From positions 4,180,916 to 4,244,915 of the forward strand of contig NC_134032.1 in the NCBI RefSeq assembly GCF_964204645.1: a stretch of DNA of 64,000 nt. Direction: 5' to 3'. This document shows positions 5,582 through 63,464 of this stretch, piece by piece. Position 1 is the first letter of the stretch, and each line of letters opens with the position of its first letter. This stretch comes from Tubulanus polymorphus (Eukaryota > Nemertea > Palaeonemertea > Tubulaniformes > Tubulanidae). The position numbers were made by a program, and so were the translations under genes. Below the pieces are notes generated by a model that saw only the letters and a list, made by a program, of their open reading frames with translations, was not told where the DNA came from and made no database searches.

Positions 5582-8500
5582 GTAATAAGTCTCTTACGAT
5601 TCATTGAATGCAGTTAACGGTGCTTATTCTGATTGGTCAATAAGACCGGTGCCCTCGGAAACGTACTCGCAGGCAAACGTGCACCAATCCACTCGATGGT
5701 GACCAGAAAGCGTGACATAAGCTTGTTTTGTTGCTAATGCTAGTTAACTACCTGACGTATCACCTACATCGAATAGATTCGCCCCTTGATTCTTTTTATA
5801 ACAATAATTTAAGAGCAAAATTCATCACCGGATATGTCTGGTGTTTCCACACGAAAATCAACTCAAAAATCGTTTTAATTTATCTGGGTCAGCCCTTCTG
5901 CATTTGGTGATGTACGTATAGAAAAGGTTTGCAATTATCTTATTTATATTATTTTATGATGTTTTTACTACAAGCAAGACATAAACGAAACTGCAATATG
6001 GTAACTAACTATAGCGACTTCAGCGCCACCACAGGTAAACATATGAGGACCCTAGAGTGGCAATATGTTTATAAACAATAAGATCTGATCTATCGATTGA
6101 TGTATGTTGCCAACCATTAACACAAAATGCCGTAATATCCAATTTTTTGTACCTTCGGCAGGCCGACTATTATTTATATCTGTCATGTTCGCGTGTATTG
6201 GGCCTTTCCGTTTTTCTTTCAATAAATGTATTGTATTGTTTGTTCAACTCTGTGCAATGAGCTGATTGGGGAGCAATAAACTTAACTTAACTTCATTATT
6301 CAGTTATAATTGCAGCTATGATTTCCTATGTATTTATGTGCGTCAATCCAACTAAATCTATTCACTTTTATGCGAGTTTTTACATTACAGCAGTTAACGG
6401 CGGTTATACTACATGGGGAGGTTGGAGCCCTTGTTTCCAAACTTGTGGCGGCGGGTCTCAGACGCGTTATCGATCGTGTACCGATCCAGCACCATCCAAT
6501 GGCGGTTTGAGCTGCGCCGACCAAAACCTCGGACCTGATAGCGACTCGAAGCCATGCGAATTAGTAATTGCGTGTCCCGGTGAGTGTTTCATTGCGTTGG
6601 TCACCGACTAATAAAATTACTGATTTCAGTTGCTGAAACGTTAAGCGGTGGATAAATACCGTAGAAACAATGAACTTAATTGTCACTGGTTAACCCTGAA
6701 CAATCTTTTAGGCCTTTTTGAATTGCTTGGTTTACGGGAACCGCCTCCGAAATTTAAAGAAAAGTCAAATGAAAATATTTTATTTTTCTTATTCCCGTGC
6801 GTGGAACAAATTCAGTGAAAAAATGAGCAAAAAAAGTTTTTTTCACCACCGCCGAACAAGTATCCTGGCTGGAATGATATAAACATTGGAAAACGCGAGT
6901 TTTTTTTATCTCACTGTGCAGAATTCGAACTTCCCAAGAAACATTTGTTTGGATATATGTACAATGCCCTATCGACAGTTCCGTCTTCCTTTAAAAAGGA
7001 ATTTTATTTCAATAAGGGATTTTCTTTTAAATTTCTATTTCCTCCTCAGAAGTGATATTTGAATAGGTCTACCGCGTAAACCGAGCAGCTATTAAAAAGG
7101 CCTCAGGACCTGACTCCAGGGTAATCCGAATTGGTGATTGCTAATTTCACCCAGAGTGTTTCACCTGCACTGAAAAGATTCGCCCTAGCTAGTTTGTCTT
7201 CATATTGATACAGACTATGTATTTGTGTGTGCGTCAATCGGACTTATCTTAATTCAGATAATCAGATGATAATCCAGAATTCGGATAAGGCCGAATCATC
7301 TTTTTCAGTCGCAACTCTTTACCGTAAAAACCAGCGTAAATTATTTGGTCCGCTGAGATTTCAGCCCCGATTATAGCACTCATTGACCTTGAGTTTACTG
7401 AGTACGTACGCAATCAATATTGATGACGAAGGCGAAGTTTCATTAGGATAAGGTTAGCAGCGGGTGAGGTCATGGTTTGGGAATGGGAGAATTGTACAAA
7501 TTAGTATATAAGTCTAAGGTTTTGGTTCAGGGAAAGAAGAGAACAGGAGGGAGCTAATAATTTAACAATAGGAAGAAGAATAACAGAAACAGTGTGATCA
7601 TATAAGCAAGACGTGTTAGCACTTTATATCTGCCTGATCGAGGAAAGAGGAAGATCCAGCGGTACGAGATTAATAAGAACAACAATAGAGGAGAGTCAGA
7701 GGACACAACACTGGTGGGGAACTTCGTGACACAACAAGTTGTGGGGAATCGAGTGGAATAACTAGGTACAGATTGTTACGTGACATATCAGTGGTTGAGA
7801 TTGTAGTTTTATAACAGGCATATATATGAGGACGATTGAAGTAGAACATTAGAAGAAGTAGAATTTTTAAGCTACCTAGGTACGGCTTCAAATAGACTGC
7901 TGGCCGATATGTTCTAAGGGGGAAGAAAGGAATTTTGTATGAAGGAATGGAATGAGGGAAATTACAATGTATCAGTTTCCTGATCACATTTCAAAAGTTA
8001 TCTTAATGTTGGCTATTTAAAAGGTCTTTCGGAGAAATAGTGAGCGAGTTTCTCGGAACGGAGCTTTACAAAATACGTGTATCGTTTCTCGTCGTCGTCG
8101 TCGTCTTTGTTGTCAATGAAGATCGAAATATTCATCATCTTTATTTCCAGCTCAAAACTTTTGCGACTCGACCAACGACTGCGGAGTGGATGTCGATTGC
8201 ATCGATACAGAAAATTCTTATTATTGTAAATGTCAGGATGGTTTTGTGCTCAGCGCTGATCGAAAACGGTGCAAAGGTAAGCAGGCATGCAATTTCTTAT
8301 TACCGACTGCCCCGTGTGTCATTAGCTATCAATTCAGGAGGCGTATTAGCCGATTGTTTGTTCCTGTATTTTTTTCTGTTTATTTCTATCAACGGTTAAG
8401 GCATGTATTTGTTTGATAGGTAGATTTCGCTTGATTTGTCTTGATTTGGTGTCCTTCACAAACCCATCACTCACACCTGCATTTTCATTCAAACAATCTC

Positions 8501-55056: not shown

Positions 55057-55059
55057 TTA

Positions 55060-55099
55060 TGCAGCTATCAATGTTATGTCTGACCCCCCCTAGTTCAGC
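55060..55099 (+). repeat. Left 40-bp terminal inverted repeat
   Basis: Identical over 40 bases to the reverse complement of 63422-63461; preceded by TTA. Confidence 0.96.
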
Positions 55100-55370
55100 G
55101 GTCGATGCAACATCGACGTCGAATTTTGGCGTATGCCTGACGTGGCGGCAAAACGCTGATGTCGATTGTCTGGCTATCATTTTTTTTATATTGGGTGAAT
55201 GACTGACGAACAGTTGGGGGCTATATAATGATGTTCTGGCGAATAGTTTCATGGAATGAGGTGAAAACCTGACGTACCGGTACCGGATTTTTAATTATGC
55301 GCAAGGAAGTTAAATAACCCGAACCGAAAAAAGATATATTACGACGCGTCTGTTGTGTTCTGCAGATAAA

Positions 55371-55440
55371 TATAGCCTGCATGGGATTCGAACCTAATCA
55401 CCGCGTTTGTATTCTAAATAGACTGGTTCCCTGCCCCAAC
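55371..55440 (-). repeat. tRNA-like SINE head (minus strand) nested in the transposon
   Basis: On the minus strand GGTTCGAATCCC (B box) lies at about 55389-55400. A TTGAATTGAATTG tail follows on the plus side at about 55577-55591. It is probably a nested SINE. Confidence 0.4.
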
Positions 55441-55644
55441 GAGTCTATTTTCTTACTCGAGTCAGGTAACTTCGCTTGTAATTGGTGTGAGTAAATGTTT
55501 TTTTTTCATTGTCTATGCAAACTTTATTCATGTGTGTTACGCGATATTTTATATGTAGCAAATGTTAATAAATATTGAATTGAATTGAATTGTAAATAAA
55601 GAATTTGAATTTTCGTTTATCGATTGGCGAACGAAGAAAAACGG

Positions 55645-58600
55645 ATGGAAAAAATGCCAAGGTATTTATCAATCAGTTTATCTTATCGTCTCAGCAGGCC
55701 CCTATCTAGTATCTATATGACAATCTATACTAACTATGCCATCAATCACTTCCTTGGCTTGTTGGAGTTGTATCTAGCTAGAACGTAAAATTTCAGCCTA
55801 GGTTAGTCTGAGTAAAAACGCTCACAAAAAATTGATTGAAATTCAATTCTGTAGGGCCAGGCCTAATCTGCTTATATGGCTATTCCATGCTTCCACAACA
55901 AAGCCTGTCATCTGAACACCATTATTATTTATTCCATTGCCGTTATATTATTACTAAAAATTCACCCCCTCCTAATCCTAGGCGCCAGGCTGCTCTTGGT
56001 CTTGGACTTGTACTCTAGGCCTACAATATACAACTTGTATTTTGTAGTGTATGTATGGAAAGAAGTCAGTGAGACCTTCTTCACTCACAATCACGTATTC
56101 TGCTATTCATTACAATTAATGTGGATGCCGTGAAGAAAACTCAAACTGTTGTCTATCAGTGTCTTTTCAATCCAAGGGACACTGCCTACAGAAAGCACCA
56201 CCTCATCATGATCTGTCAAATTTTAAAATGTTTTACTTCTTTCGCGATATGTGACCTAGTTCCCATTATTGTGAAACTTCATTAGAAGTGATCAGGCTAA
56301 CCAGTAACCTATCCTTTACGAAGCGTGCCCTTGCTCTTCTTGATAAAATTAATAGGCCTATTATAATTTTTTATTTTCAGTCGACCCTTTAAATTACTCG
56401 TGGGCAAAGGAACCCAAGAAAAAGTTCCAATAATAGCAACATCGTATGAGGATTTATTACAGAAAGGTGAGTCTATTTAAGTCTTGATTCGTGTAAGGTC
56501 AATGAGGCCTATAAAGGTAAAATTCACCTTTCCTGATCTCACGATTAGTTTATAAATTCTTAGCATTTCTTTAGCAGCAAGGGTATTTCTTTTCAAATGA
56601 ATAGAAATCAATCTTTATTTAATTAATTGTAAAGCTTTTGTACAATATTGTTTTTATGGTAATGCTGCAATTGGGACATAAGTTCACAAAAATGAATATA
56701 AATCAAATGTCTATCTTCCTATAAAATGATACTACGTAGGATATAAGTTAAAAACCACTCTTTGATACTACGTACTGGTAGGGCTTGAAATTTTTGAAAT
56801 TTCATACATCATCGATCCACATTGGATACTACTCAACCAAAATCTCGATCCGATATCCAAATCATGGTAGGCCTACCCCAAGTTCAGAGGTTTACTGAAA
56901 ATTTTGGAAACCCATTTGGATACATAGACATCAAAGATCTAGGCCTAGTAGGCCTATCATGTAGAAAACCCTCAAGTTTTTTTAACAATTTTATTTCCGA
57001 CGTTTCGACACACCACTGTGTGTCATCAGGGTAAAGTTACAAGTGACCTAGTAGGCCTATCCTTTGGATATCAAGATACTGCTAATTTCAAGCCCTGTAT
57101 GACGAAATTAATTTGCCTAGGTGCACGAAGCACTCCTAGTTTGTAAAATGGTATTTGTATTTTAGTTTGTGAAAAATTGAACTGTGAAGGTGTCCTGTAC
57201 ACAGAAGACCACACAGAAATAACTGCTGAATACTATGACTTTCTTGAAAACTTCACTGTTGTGTATTTGAAAGCTAGTCCCGATGTCAGCGAAATAGAAT
57301 CGATCGAGAGTGAACCTGATATTGCAGCTGTCAGAGGTAACTATTATTTCTTATGACTTCACCCTTCAGCTGCAAGAGATAGTTAACCCTTTCCTAAATA
57401 TATTTTCTGCTTTTAAGAACTACAATAGTGATAGATGTCCCACTGTGATAGCCTTTCAAGGCTGGGTTCAAACTTGTGTCTGCGTTGAACTCAAGTGTGA
57501 CTCTCTTACTTAAACATAACTTACCGTACTTGCCGTATCCTGGCAATATTGCTACCCCAGTAATATTGGATTTCACTTGATATTTTTTATATTACTTTAC
57601 TATCATTTTAAAAGCTCAGATATAGAGGACTGTCATTGTTTCTTTTATAGTCTAATGAAGTTGTGTAATTTTTCCACAGAAATTACAGTTCAGAAAACTT
57701 TAGTTGATTTTGGCACAATGGATACAGAAAAACATAAAGCTCATATTCAGCGACAGACAAAGATTCTGGCAGAGCATGGGAAAAATGCTAATTACAACAA
57801 GGAAATAAATAAAACATGCTATAAGCTTGTTTTAAAAACACCGGAGCTGTTAAATAAAGGCAATAGAGGAACGCTTCTGAAAAATGCAAGACTTGAGGTA
57901 CATGTATAAATTTGAAAACCAATGATTTTAAAAAGTTTTTGATTACAGGTATTTTTGAAAGTCTACGCTACATTATCCGCCACCCTCACTATCTGCCAAT
58001 ACATTTTACATACGAATGGATTTCTACAACATATTTGTTTGTTTACTGATTAGCTCTGCTGTGACTGAAGTTCCCAGTTCAAGATGGCCGACAGGTGGCC
58101 ATGATTATTTTAGGTTTTATTATCTTATGACATAACTTTATAAAAACCAATTGAGGTAATTTCATTGAATTTTTTGATGGTAGGTGTATATTAAATCTGG
58201 GAGGTGGCTGACAGTTTGTGTTGGCTTTTATGTATTTTATGCCATAACACTGATGGACATAATTTCATGAAATCTTTATGGTGGGTGTATGGTAGTACAA
58301 AGAGGAATCCTGTTTACATGAATTTACAGGACAATTGCTAATTCCCCAAAAATACTTAAATTTTCCCACCAGAGCTTTATCCATAGAGATTTGTTATATT
58401 TCTTTTCAGGTTAATAAAGTGTACCCTTTTAAGAGAAAACGCAGACATGCCAACGCTGATTCTGGTCCAAAACCGAAGCTGTCGAAAAAGTGTCGTCAAC
58501 AAAGGATCGCTGATATAAATGATAGGTTATTGTCAATCGAATCTAAAACCGGCATTCTGCTCATTCAGATACGCACCAAAACTTTATTGAATTTAACGGA

Positions 58601-61600
58601 AGAGGCTGATGCACTTCAAACCCAATTAGATAATCTGTATGCTGAAAAAAAGGGCTCAAAATTGAAAAAGAAGATTTAAATCGAAAGGAAAATAAATCTG
58701 GAAGGGACTCTCGTTATCATGCATCACAAAGTATAAAGACTTCTCCATCAGCTACTGTTACTTACTCAACCGATACATTTAGTAGTGCTACAGAAGAAGT
58801 GATTTCCGATGCAGACACTGTCATCCTTTCTGATGATGAACAAGTTAATGCCACAATTAGTTCATATAAGACTGTTCCATCAACTAATGTTGTTACTAAG
58901 CCCACCGATGAAGATAAGAGTATTAATACTGAAGAAGTGAATGAATCTGTATCTCACAATTCAGACACTGTCATCCCCTCTAATGATGAACAAGATAATA
59001 CTGAAATGAGTTCAGATGTTGGTAATGAGATCAGTGATGTTACGAGTAGTATTAAAGATAGTATTCAATCAGTACCAGATAATAACAGGTATTTTTCAGA
59101 TACTTATAGGTTGTTTATTTCCGAGAAAATGGTAGTTGATAGTAAAAAGGTTTTCTTCTTGAAAGTGAATGACCATGTAAAAGTGTCTCATTATTCAAAC
59201 CTCACTCTTGCCGATTTTAAAATCATTCAAGAGAACTGCCGTCATACTGATACAGATAACTGTTCATGTCAGCTTGATGCTTCGATAGCCAGATATGTCT
59301 TGGAGAATGAACCAGTCTCTCTTCGACAGATACATGATTCTTGTTTCCCTGCATCACACAAGTATTGTAAGCCCAATGTCTTAAGAAAAGTTTTCCAAAT
59401 GCCTGTTGTTGCCGTGTTAATGGGTAGAAACCTGAAAGGAACACTACGGTGTGGTGGAACTCAGCTGTATATTTCACAGAAATTGAGTGGTGTCGATTAT
59501 GGTTCAGCTTTTAATATAGGTGTCAAGTTTGGACTTTTCTCTGAATCAGAGTTTGGTTACAATTATATTAGCAAAGATCGTCTAAAGTTGCTGAAATCGT
59601 TGTGTTCTACTGAGAAGGACAAACGACTGGTCACATTTGCTGCAACAGATTGTCTATCTGGTAAAAAGTGTAAGGCAGCTTATGGATCTAACTATAGGAA
59701 ATTACGTGATGATGTAGAGGAAGCTCTATCACGGATACAAGTAATTCATAGTGTATATACAGATCTGGTGCAATCGAAGGATAAAGCTATGCTAGAAGAG
59801 CTGGGGTTGTATGATCATTATGTTGACAATGAAGCAGATGATTTAGATGAGGAAGAGATTGATGAAGACGAATTGAGTAATCTTCTGCCATGTGAAAATA
59901 CTCCTGATGACACTGAACCATTGGAGATTGATAGTGATGACGATGATGATTGTGATACTGCTGAGAGACTAGTGAATGTAAAATCTGTTACAGATCCTAA
60001 GTTTATTCAGTTAATTAAAGAAAAGAGACAGCATTTACAACGACAAAAGAAGGTATTAATTGCTAAGCAAATGGCAGAGGAACGATTATTACAACGAAAA
60101 GTCACTAAATCTACTAAAACTTTACTACAGAGCCATCCAGACATTGGGAAAGTCATGGAGGACATTGTGAGAAATGCGGGTGTGGGGGCCGATAAGTGGC
60201 GGTCCTCGTCTAGTTTGACATGGGAGCGCAAAAAGGTCGGCCAAAAAATGACTATGGAAAGGTTGCGAGATGAACTGTCAAAAAGAATTGGAAAAAAAAT
60301 CAGTTATGGCACAGTATTTGAATTATGTGTTCCACCTAACAAACGGAGAAAATCAAGTTCAAGGTACCGTGGTGTTGCAAACATTGTGTCTAAACGTGCG
60401 AGGAAGGGCTTTGACATCAAAATTAATGTAGATGACCATTGGTCGTCGGCCTTGTATAAAGGTCTTGATAAATTACACTCAACTGACAACAAGAACATTC
60501 TTCTAATTAACAGAGATGATGCTGCTGGCTTCCGATTAAATACGCTAGCAACATCAAATCATTTTAAATCGCTTATGGTGCGAGGTGAAGAGGACCTGGC
60601 CACGCGTACCGACTTCACAAATTCTGAACAGTCAATACTACAGGTCACTTCGTATCATTTCACCGGTAGTCCAACTACTATAGAGGACTATGCTGGGATA
60701 GTGAAACCAACCAAATTAGTTCCTAAGACACCTAGTCAACATGCAGCGGATCTACGTATGTTGTCAAATGTTCCACAACTGAAACATGTTTTCTATCGAG
60801 AAGATGGTCATGTGAAAGAAATTGATGCCATCAGAGTAGATGGGGCGGGGGATGAAAATCCCGACCATGTAGAACAGAAATTCATGTGGGGAGAATGGCA
60901 CTATGAGCAAAGGAAACTAGCCACCTTCGTAACGACACGGTTTGCTGGCGGGAGCTTCTTAAATATTGTCGAACATTTAAATGGGCAGCTCAAGCGAGCT
61001 CACGCAAACTTGTTTATCCCATCGACCCTATTGGGTCCTAATAAAAATGCTGGTGTTATAGATGAAACATTGGTTGCAAATAATCTAAATGCTGCTGTGG
61101 ATGTTTACCTATCCAGAGTAAATGGAACAAAGTTTAACAATAACACAATTAAACTATTCAAACATGGTGAAAGACCAGATTATGTAGATAGGAGAGAATT
61201 GTTGCTGTCTTATCTGAAAGCCAATGAGAAGAAACGAAGTGATATAAAGTACCAATATTCAGCAGAACCAGAAAAATTCCAACAGTTGCAATATTTTGAC
61301 ATGATATTGAGTGTGATATCTAATCATCAGATTGATACAGTTAAGTATGTCTACGGATTAGTGTGTTGTTTCAAAGATGGATGTCCACACCCAATTTGCC
61401 AAGAACGGAACAGGAGGAATGAAGAAATGGTCTGGTTCCCAAATGGCCCACTTCTCACTTTTATTCCATGGCCATACGCTGATCCAGAGAGAAAATGTGA
61501 ATGTGATAATTGTGATGGGCACTTTAAATCATATCTTGATCTTCTGGAACTTTCGAAGTCACGAATCCTTGACCCTGGAAATTGTCTACCTTCGAAACTT

Positions 61601-61876
61601 ATTGCTGAAGAATTCTCCAAGAAGAAGTTAGAAGTAAAAAAAGGTTCTGAAATGGCTAAAGCTGGCATGGTTCCTCCGCTTACAGAATCTGAAGTGAAAG
61701 TTCTTTCGACGCAGCTTTGTCTTTCTATTGATCGTGTGAACTATTACTACAATCACCTTGCTGCAGTTCATAAAGCAAGAGTTATGGGTGGCCAAAAAGC
61801 TGCTGCCACAAGACAGAAAAAAAGGCTGGAGGAGGAAAATGCCAGTGTTGATTACATAAAAAAGGTTCTTCATTGA
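55645..61876 (+). CDS. CIDE-N-like domain fused to a DDE-type transposase (5 exons, one frameshift)
   Basis: Exons: 55645-55661, 56381-56466, 57166-57336, 57680-57897, 58410-61876, all GT-AG and phase-matched. Residues ~7-78 (RPFKLLVGKG, then ATSYEDLLQKVCEKL, then LYTEDHTEITAEYYDFLENFTVVYLKA) match the CIDE-N layout of CAD/DFF proteins: RPF start, 'SS..ELL', 'eDGTev....f..L..nt'. A basic linker and Ser/Thr/Asp-rich segment follow. The catalytic part has INRDDAAGF (about 60510), RVDGAGDENPDH (about 60837) and NIVEHLNGQLKRAH (Glu at 60971), a plausible D-D-E triad, then a Cys-rich segment (CCFKDGCPHPIC; CECDNC). A coiled/acidic region (LDEEEIDEDELSNLL) lies between. Frame changes by one base within 58644-58673 beside an A7 run. 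About 1,320 aa if that is a sequence error. Confidence 0.8.
56955..57040 (-). repeat. Conserved element tail fragment in an intron
   Basis: On the minus strand CCTGATGACACACAGTGGTGTGTCGAAACGTCGG forms a 7-bp stem between CTGATG and CGAAACG. This motif recurs in metazoan repeats and resembles, but does not satisfy, a hammerhead core. It probably marks a small inserted repeat. Confidence 0.45.
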
Positions 61877-61947
61877 CATTTTCTGTGTTATGAGTTGCAT
61901 CAAGCTGACACAAAAATCTACAGAGGAGGATTTGATATAGGGACTAT

Positions 61948-62091
61948 TAGACAATTTCAGAAAGTCGCAATCCTTGCGGCAGGTGCACGTACATGGTGGA
62001 TAATCACAAAGCCAAAAGAATTCGATTCATAGTGATTATCCACCATGTACGTGCACCTGCCGCAAGGATTGCGACTTTCTGAAATTGTCTA
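61948..62091. repeat. Perfect 60-bp inverted repeat with 24-nt loop, just after the transposase stop
   Basis: 61948-62007 pairs exactly with 62032-62091; the loop is 62008-62031. It begins 71 bp after the transposase stop codon. Transcripts reading through would form a 60-bp dsRNA stem, a possible miRNA/siRNA precursor or a 3'-end structure. No mismatch in 60 bp implies recent origin or constraint. Confidence 0.96.
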
Positions 62092-62164
62092 TTGAATACA
62101 TACTTTAACAAGTATTGTTCTATGTACATGTATTACATCAAATTGTGTCTTTTTTTTTGTAGGT

Positions 62165-62420
62165 CAGCCACTGATCCAGTGATCAGATACTGATCTAGAA
62201 GATCAATGACAGAAAAGAGTGGCACCGACATTTTGTTTTAATTAATAATGTAGAGTGTTTAACATGGCTCTTTGGAAATTTGTATATACCTGGTATTAGC
62301 AGCCACTGATCAGATACTGATCTAGAAGATCGATGATAGAAATGAGTGGCACCGACATTTTGTTTTAATTAATAATGTAGAGCGTTTTACATGGCTCTTT
62401 GGAAATTTGTATATACCTGG
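62165..62420. repeat. Tandem duplication, ~128-bp unit
   Basis: 62165-62292 (CAGCCACTGATC...ATACCTGG) is repeated at 62300-62420 with few substitutions and one 7-bp gap (CCAGTGA). Non-coding, in the transposon's right arm. Confidence 0.92.
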
Positions 62421-62822
62421 AGCCAGTTTCATATACATAAATACACTCCTGGTTAATTAATTATATGGAACATTTTATGGTTAGACCATCAAGACCGAAC
62501 TCCAGGTACAATATGAACAGGTCGATCTCTGATTGCCCTAATGATATCTGAATTATGATCAATTTAAAAGTCAGGTACTTATTCCATCTACACGAAACTG
62601 GCCCCTGGGTAACAGTATTTTAACTTTGTTGTAATTCTTCTGATGTTTATTAAGTTTTGTTGTTATTTTTCCGAGGTTTATATAAGTAGTTCTTTTTTAC
62701 CTACCTCAGTGGCCACTTGAGGTAATACTTAATTACTGATTTTTTGTAATATCAATATGACGGTCGGGTAATTCCACATGGGGCATGTGTCAATAATACC
62801 TACCTCCAAGACTGACCTGGTC

Positions 62823-62875
62823 AAATATTGAAATAAGTACAACATGGTCACCATGTTGTATTTATTTCAATATTT
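62823..62875. repeat. 53-bp near-perfect palindrome
   Basis: Arms 62823-62848 and 62850-62875 match at 25 of 26 positions around a single central base. It overlaps the sequence AACATGGTCACCATGTT. It can form a cruciform; possibly a small nested element or a protein-binding site. Confidence 0.9.
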
Positions 62876-63421
62876 AATATTTTCGATGAGAGGGATTCCG
62901 AAGTCATTCCGATTTGTTGAATTGAACAATAATCATTTCAAGTACTTAAGATGAAGTAGGAAAATGACTCCCAGGAACATAAATGCATTATTAATGTTTC
63001 CATACACATTTTGCATTAATAGTAATAACTTGGTTATTTTTGAAGCTCAACTATTTGAGCACTTTATTTTTTATAAAATGGAAACCAAATAACACCAATT
63101 ATTTTAACAAATGTATATTGCATTGCAATAGGCTTAGGCCTTGTTAGTTAAATAAAGTTTACTGATAATTTGTAGAAAATTTAGTATCTTGAAAATGCTT
63201 AGTTTCGGACCTTGGTCAAAAACTATTTTTTGTTCACGGTTTTTCGAAAGGTGAATGTCTGACTACAGGAAATATGTATGAGGTGAATATCAGGCGAAGC
63301 TCTGACATTCTTCATTCTGGAGTAGGGTGAATTCTTGACTTATGTATTCTTCTTCTGAGGCGAATATTGGTCGAATCCTAGACGAATGACATCATTGGAA
63401 ATGTCTAATAGATGGTGATGT

Positions 63422-63461
63422 GCTGAACTAGGGGGGGTCAGACATAACATTGATAGCTGCA
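63422..63461 (-). repeat. Right 40-bp terminal inverted repeat
   Basis: Followed by TTA (63462-63464), the duplicated target. Confidence 0.96.
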
Positions 63462-63464
63462 TTA

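Follow-up and report, generated by a model that had tools for sequence, protein, structure and literature searches.

A 64,000-nucleotide window of the Tubulanus polymorphus genome (contig NC_134032.1; positions given without a contig label are those of the window) contains a DNA transposon at 55060-63461. We regard it as close to certain that this element is a young cut-and-paste transposon copy belonging to a DD43E clade whose target site duplications are 3 bp long (TWA), and that its transposase carries an N-terminal CIDE-N domain. The domain was probably captured from an animal gene, and we infer that its role is most likely self-assembly of the transposase. For the identity of the transposon, the capture and the self-assembly role taken together we estimate a probability of about 50%.

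A recently mobile cut-and-paste element

The element is bounded by terminal inverted repeats (TIRs) that match perfectly over 40 bp, with a complementarity of 41 nt once the flanking A/T is counted (Table 1). A genome search with its first 70 bases gave four places, which were the two ends in the window and the two ends of a second copy on contig C5 (10928722-10937124). The two copies, together called family F1, are 99.69% identical over 8,422 aligned bases. The alignment breaks down immediately beyond the element ends, where the flanks differ, and the C5 copy has its own TTA duplication and a 4-bp insertion in its right end. The near-identical second copy, its differing flanks and its own duplication indicate that F1 has been mobile recently. 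A reading made earlier from the window alone (the sequence-only reading) had described a complete DNA transposon with perfect 40-bp TIRs and TTA duplications, and the TIRs, the duplications and the second copy with other flanks bear this out. TWA duplications were present in all four complete copies inspected (TTA in the window and at C5, TAA at C2 and TTA at C12). The combination expected for cut-and-paste transposition, TIRs with target duplications of fixed length at differing sites, was thus found.

Table 1. Features of the F1 element in the window, in order of position
Feature	Position	Strand	Basis or remark
Left target site duplication, TTA	55057..55059		read from the window sequence
Left TIR, 40 bp	55060..55099	+	found again at contig C5
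Exon 1 (MEKMP plus 2 nt)	55645..55661	+	start identical to P0020
Exon 2, first half of CIDE-N (RPFKLLVGKGTQEKVPIIATSYEDLLQK)	56381..56466	+	phase-1 end, likewise in families F2-F4
Exon 3, second half of CIDE-N (VCEKLNCEGVLYTEDHTEITAEYYDFLENFTVVYL) and linker	57166..57336	+	splicing, Pfam
Exon 4, block around GKNANYNKEINKTC	57680..57897	+	conserved in family F2
Exon 5, first part, basic/helical segment	58410..58679	+	stop at 58677-58679 here; open in the C5 copy
Transposase open reading frame, 1,076 aa	58646..61876	+	frame differs from exon 5 here; same frame in the C5 copy
Winged-helix-like region	59195..59494	+	model residues 46-145
First catalytic aspartate (either D of the invariant pair in NRDDAAGF)	60515..60520	+	20/20 aligned rows
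Second catalytic aspartate (RVDGAGDE)	60839..60841	+	20/20 aligned rows
Catalytic glutamate (NIVEHLNG)	60971..60973	+	E in 17/17 rows covering the position
Homeodomain-like helix-turn-helix	61586..61813	+	model residues 843-918
Perfect 60-bp inverted repeat, 24-nt loop	61948..62091		between the transposase stop and the last exon of the short isoform
Last exon of the NCBI short isoform	62163..62193	+	spliced from 58525, whole core skipped
Right TIR, 40 bp	63422..63461	-	inverted-repeat comparison
Right target site duplication, TTA	63462..63464		read from the window sequence

Gene structure and reading frame

The five exons have GT/AG borders and splice in phase to give a protein with the N-terminal sequence MEKMPSRPFKLL...TEDHTEI...NFTVVYL..., which is the N-terminus that had been proposed. 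The NCBI protein P0020 (LOC141910267) agrees with this chain letter for letter from exon 1 into the first part of exon 5. The spliced frame of the window copy meets a stop codon before the core, which lies in another frame. The shift was located at an A-run near 58644, the length of which differs between the copies. The C5 copy is open across the A-run and encodes a single protein of 1,319 aa, in which CIDE-N comes first, the GKNANYNKEINKTC block and a basic helical segment follow, and an acidic linker leads into the core. The phase-consistent five-exon gene of the sequence-only reading therefore exists in the family, as the C5 copy demonstrates, but the window copy is frame-shifted ahead of the core. 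Programmed frameshifting at the A-run was set aside because the C5 copy and family F2 (see below) are open without it; the shift is explained more simply if the window copy has lost a base or is misassembled at this point. The NCBI model of LOC141910267 splices from 58525 to 62163, which yields a protein of 212 aa with CIDE-N and no core and reproduces P0020 letter for letter. This short CIDE-N isoform is all that NCBI annotates at the locus.

The N-terminal domain is CIDE-N

When searched against Pfam, the F1 N-terminal protein matched PF02017 (CIDE-N) at 30.2 bits (E 4.9e-7), above the curated cut-off of 23.5 bits, and no other family at E<=1. The CIDE-N assignment made from the letters of the window was confirmed in this way, and the fusion of the domain to a transposase is borne out by the single frame of the open C5 copy. 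The corresponding domains of other families in the genome scored 25.4 (F2) and 24.5 bits (F3), above the cut-off, and 17.2 bits (F4), below it; the half domain of family F5 gave no PF02017 match in the Pfam search. A profile built from the F1, F2 and F3 domains only was compared with all PDB sequences and gave 10 matches at E<=10, nine of which were CIDE proteins. CIDE-B was the best of these (2.2e-5), and the lower matches, from 0.015 to 1, were CIDE-3 (two), CIDE-A, DREP2, ICAD, DFF45 and CAD (two).

The transposase core

The catalytic aspartates and the glutamate are invariant in every aligned row that covers them (Table 1), in agreement with the D/D/E-like core that had been noticed in the window. 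Between the second aspartate and the glutamate lie 43 residues in 16 of 17 rows and 45 in P0017, hence the designation DD43E. The modelled core is RNase-H-like in its fold order, and its best structural alignments are with transposases and integrases, at moderate Z. Homeodomains were mixed into the list of structural matches from rank 11, with winged helices lower, and these assignments are to be taken as hints only. No structure reached E<=0.001 in a Foldseek search with the core.

Related families and distribution

When the core was used as a protein query against the T. polymorphus genome, 40 matches were listed, among them family F2. One copy of this family on C2 and one on C12 each contain an open frame of 1,173 codons, and a further copy on C12 is partly masked. 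The two open copies carry inverted repeats that begin with TGCA, measure about 84 bp and are 87-88% alike; their duplications are TAA (C2) and TTA (C12). The two exons upstream of the F2 core are those recognized by Pfam as CIDE-N. Joined to an acceptor at position 6304 in the merged sequence of C2, they give one open frame of 1,252 residues, in which exon 1 and the start codon are lacking. Two open families thus encode a CIDE-N transposase, and they share the order CIDE-N, GKNANY, core. The F1 and F2 proteins are 35.8% identical over 1,222 columns and, since their layout is the same, the fusion must have been kept through long divergence.

Decayed copies extend this picture. In F3 (C2:13877k) and F4 (C3:14051k) the domain lies upstream of a decayed core match; the F4 domain has one stop, and its core pieces are likewise full of stops. 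F5 (C1:14268k, in locus L051) is a decayed family with the second half of CIDE-N only, and L051 had no core match among those of the genome search. In this locus (C1:14261500-14269500) the CIDE-N half exon and a GKNANY-like block flank retroelement-like fragments, which we take to be of the BEL/Pao type. Five further decayed core copies (L031, L032, L033, L034 and L036) showed no convincing CIDE-N by tblastn and exon profiles; L033 has a GKNANY-like block.

Searches with the F1 N-terminus returned P0020 only, and no CIDE-N transposase from outside the T. polymorphus genome. Searches with the core gave 33 pattern matches in viral contigs and 65 in prokaryote genomes, with no confirmed relative. 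The tree, from which P0002, P0004 and P0019 were excluded as incomplete, placed the database relatives P0001 and P0003 inside the CIDE-N clade. Pfam PHD was matched by 9 of the 20 aligned members, the window member not being one of them, and the nine rows labelled PHD from the alignment were separated from F1 and F2 by a branch with 100/100 support. In this sister clade (rows among P0005-P0018, with P0018 from Paramuricea clavata) the core and the DD43E triad align with F1. These relatives have a C-terminal PHD finger and no CIDE-N was seen in them, several being partial models, whereas F1 has an N-terminal CIDE-N. One PHD-bearing relative, P0008, contains many tandem copies of a repeat of 20-odd residues (TLAQATASLDCRVTTSPAGLQAV) before its PHD finger.

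Origin of the domain

The PF02017 search of the genome also showed CIDE-N exons at C3:15396272 (L038), C4:17386301 (L039) and C5:9284030 (L040). Counts of this kind are minimum values, as the listing missed the split exons of the element itself. L038 and L039 are 99.4% alike over about 2 kb on two contigs and were counted as one. In these host-type exons the domain is followed by a Q-E-E-W segment that is missing from the transposon versions, and for this reason we read them as parts of DFF-type genes. A genome search for the DFF40 nuclease domain (PF09230) gave no match and is uninformative because the controls were also without a match.

In families F1-F4 an intron splits one and the same codon of CIDE-N behind its first base (phase 1), just before an x-x-K-(L/F)-like motif (VCEKL in F1, AASKL in F2). 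With the first AG as acceptor, the host exons L038 (QEKF) and L040 (QLKF) start at the same codon and in the same phase, the host position being read from the acceptor side alone. The F1 intron ends at, or at most two codons from, the place found in the worm's own CIDE-N exons. The intron position agrees with, without proving, an origin of the domain in genomic DNA captured from a gene of the DFF/CIDE type. The sequence-only reading had left it open whether the element acquired CIDE-N or carries it by convergence; the profile matches to CIDE proteins and the intron at or near the host place favor acquisition. We thus consider it fairly probable that an ancestor of the clade took up the domain from a DFF/CIDE-type gene of an animal, probably together with the intron inside it. 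Our confidence in this step had been high and was reduced when no donor sides turned up for the host exons. Transfer in the opposite direction, from transposon to host, is unlikely because CIDE-N is present in fly and mammalian genes (PMC8647176).

The stretch of about 2 kb around L038 and L039 (C3:15396k, C4:17386k) is either a recent duplication or itself mobile. Just upstream of the third CIDE-N exon are long open stretches (CLGHDLFEGIVRVD...; L052 and L040, C5:9279500-9285661) that resemble a further transposable element.

Possible role of CIDE-N and alternative explanations

The net charge of the first half of CIDE-N is +2, +2 and +3 in F1, F2 and F3, and that of the second half is -6, -6 and -5, as calculated from the sequence. 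This pattern would be in line with the two-faced, oppositely charged surface described for CIDE domains (PMC8647176). On the basis of the charge pattern we suggest that transposase molecules dock head to tail via oppositely charged CIDE-N faces, like CAD and ICAD. Docking would raise the local transposase concentration on the TIRs and help to pair the two ends before cutting. The winged-helix and homeodomain-like parts would bind DNA, and the RNase-H-like DDE core would cut and then join at TWA. Alternative splicing may perhaps yield a CIDE-N protein without the core that docks on the full-length enzyme and dampens its activity. An elaboration of this scheme, in which one gene encodes a CAD/ICAD-like pair of long transposase and short CIDE-N chaperone and inhibitor, so that a control circuit of apoptosis would have been copied into the element to regulate its copy number, possibly cross-wired to host DFF, appears to us quite unlikely.

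Several observations weigh against capture and self-assembly. The F1 domain alone, compared with the PDB, matched CIDE-B at E=0.076, ranked behind three unrelated viral nsp1 chains (E 0.0017, with no single stretch within the limit). Both L038 and L040 have a second AG five bases on, the use of which would shift the intron by two codons and place it in a different phase, and no host first-half exon or donor side was found within about 4.5 kb upstream of either exon. Finally, the loop glycine at the position of DREP4 G92 is replaced by H, K and N in the F1, F2 and F3 alignment, while in DREP4 the mutation G92I blocks the formation of proper filaments (PMC8891305). With this glycine lost, pairs or short chains would be more likely than long filaments of the kind that the sequence-only reading had suggested for the transposase.

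The domain could instead be directed at the host, as the sequence-only reading had also suggested with its contact to the DNA-fragmentation machinery; the transposase or its short isoform would then bind CAD or ICAD and thereby exploit or block the apoptotic nuclease system, or be held in check by it. Such a role is suggested by the membership of the domain in the family of the DFF system, by the other DFF-type CIDE-N exons in the genome, by the pairing of DFF40 and DFF45 through CIDE-N (PMC8647176) and by the parallel of betabaculovirus CIDE_N proteins, for which contact with host DFF was suggested (PMC5245865). The transposon domains, however, are distant from the host CIDE-N domains, and we regard a host target as unlikely. 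Even less can be said for CIDE-N as a chromatin-contact module that replaced the C-terminal PHD finger of the sister clade, which we judge decidedly unlikely. The CIDE domain of DREP4 is described as binding histones H1 and H2 (PMC8891305), and the rows labelled PHD lie across the 100/100 branch from F1 and F2, but the swap is only a pattern, and many relatives are incomplete gene models in which the absence of a domain is uncertain.

A convergent ubiquitin-like fold, for example PB1-like, that only resembles CIDE-N is very hard to maintain. The domain is short, the single-sequence AlphaFold2 model of P0020 (made without an alignment) has a mean pLDDT of 38.7, and the weak CIDE-B match of F1 behind the nsp1 chains would fit this explanation. 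Yet CIDE-N is the sole Pfam family above its cut-off, the transposon profile retrieved almost exclusively CIDE proteins from the PDB, and the intron lies at or near its place in host CIDE-N exons. Transposons capture exons, and CIDE-N might also be the relic of such an event, a passenger with no role in transposition. The stop in the F4 domain would be expected on this account, but the F4 core is decayed as well, and a relic should have decayed rather than remain open and above the cut-off in two families whose transposases have diverged so far. A passenger domain is therefore very unlikely, and self-assembly is the role that we prefer.

Repeats within the element

The perfect inverted repeat downstream of the transposase stop was found by genome search in the two F1 copies only. 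Because of this confinement it is probably the element's own and not an inserted MITE, and it could form a long hairpin RNA within the long transcript. The 3' part of the element also contains a direct repeat of 118 bp (62176-62293 and 62303-62420) with 94.9% identity, as seen in the alignment between the window and C5 elements.

Comparison with known systems

The F1 gene resembles the CAD/DFF40 and ICAD/DFF45 pair in having an N-terminal CIDE-N on a DNA-cutting enzyme and, beside it, a CIDE-N protein that lacks a catalytic part, here the annotated isoform. The enzymes differ, with a DFF40 nuclease in the one case and an RNase-H-like DD43E transposase in a mobile element in the other. The transposon domains also differ from the host exons and DREP4 in the missing Q-E-E-W end segment and the replaced loop glycine.

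Elements of the IS630/Tc1/mariner group (Mos1, SETMAR, Sleeping Beauty) have a TA duplication, whereas TWA was found for the present elements, which are unlike them also in the spacing of 43 and in their long multi-domain N-terminus. Zator, a superfamily related to this group, has a 3-bp target duplication. PIF/Harbinger elements have the TWA duplication in common with the elements described here; no Harbinger-type DDE family was among the 25 listed of the 26 Pfam families matched by the 20 members at E<=10. Zator is further described as related to bacterial TP36 transposases (PMC7386202).

Betabaculoviruses encode small CIDE_N proteins, 91-111 aa in length apart from one of 185 aa, and an interaction of these with host DFF was suggested by the authors (PMC5245865). 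As in F1, a CIDE_N domain with a relation to DFF proteins of the host is found in parasitic DNA; the viral proteins are not fused to a recombinase, whereas the domain in F1 is fused to a transposase. Among the matches listed in a literature search pairing CIDE-N with transposon or transposase, no such fusion was reported.

Significance

Two Hydra genomes have 10 and 7 CIDE-N domains compared with 1 to 3 in five other cnidarians, and the authors of the Hydra viridissima genome report list this excess together with transposase domains (PMC7642931). The Hydra CIDE-N genes may perhaps belong to the same kind of element, and CIDE-N transposons are an explanation worth testing for this excess alongside transposase domains. 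If CIDE-N works in these transposases as it does in CAD and ICAD, it would provide a defined, testable interface for the assembly or restraint of a eukaryotic transposase, and it would exemplify a domain of the apoptosis system that a mobile element carries and has retained while its families diverged widely.

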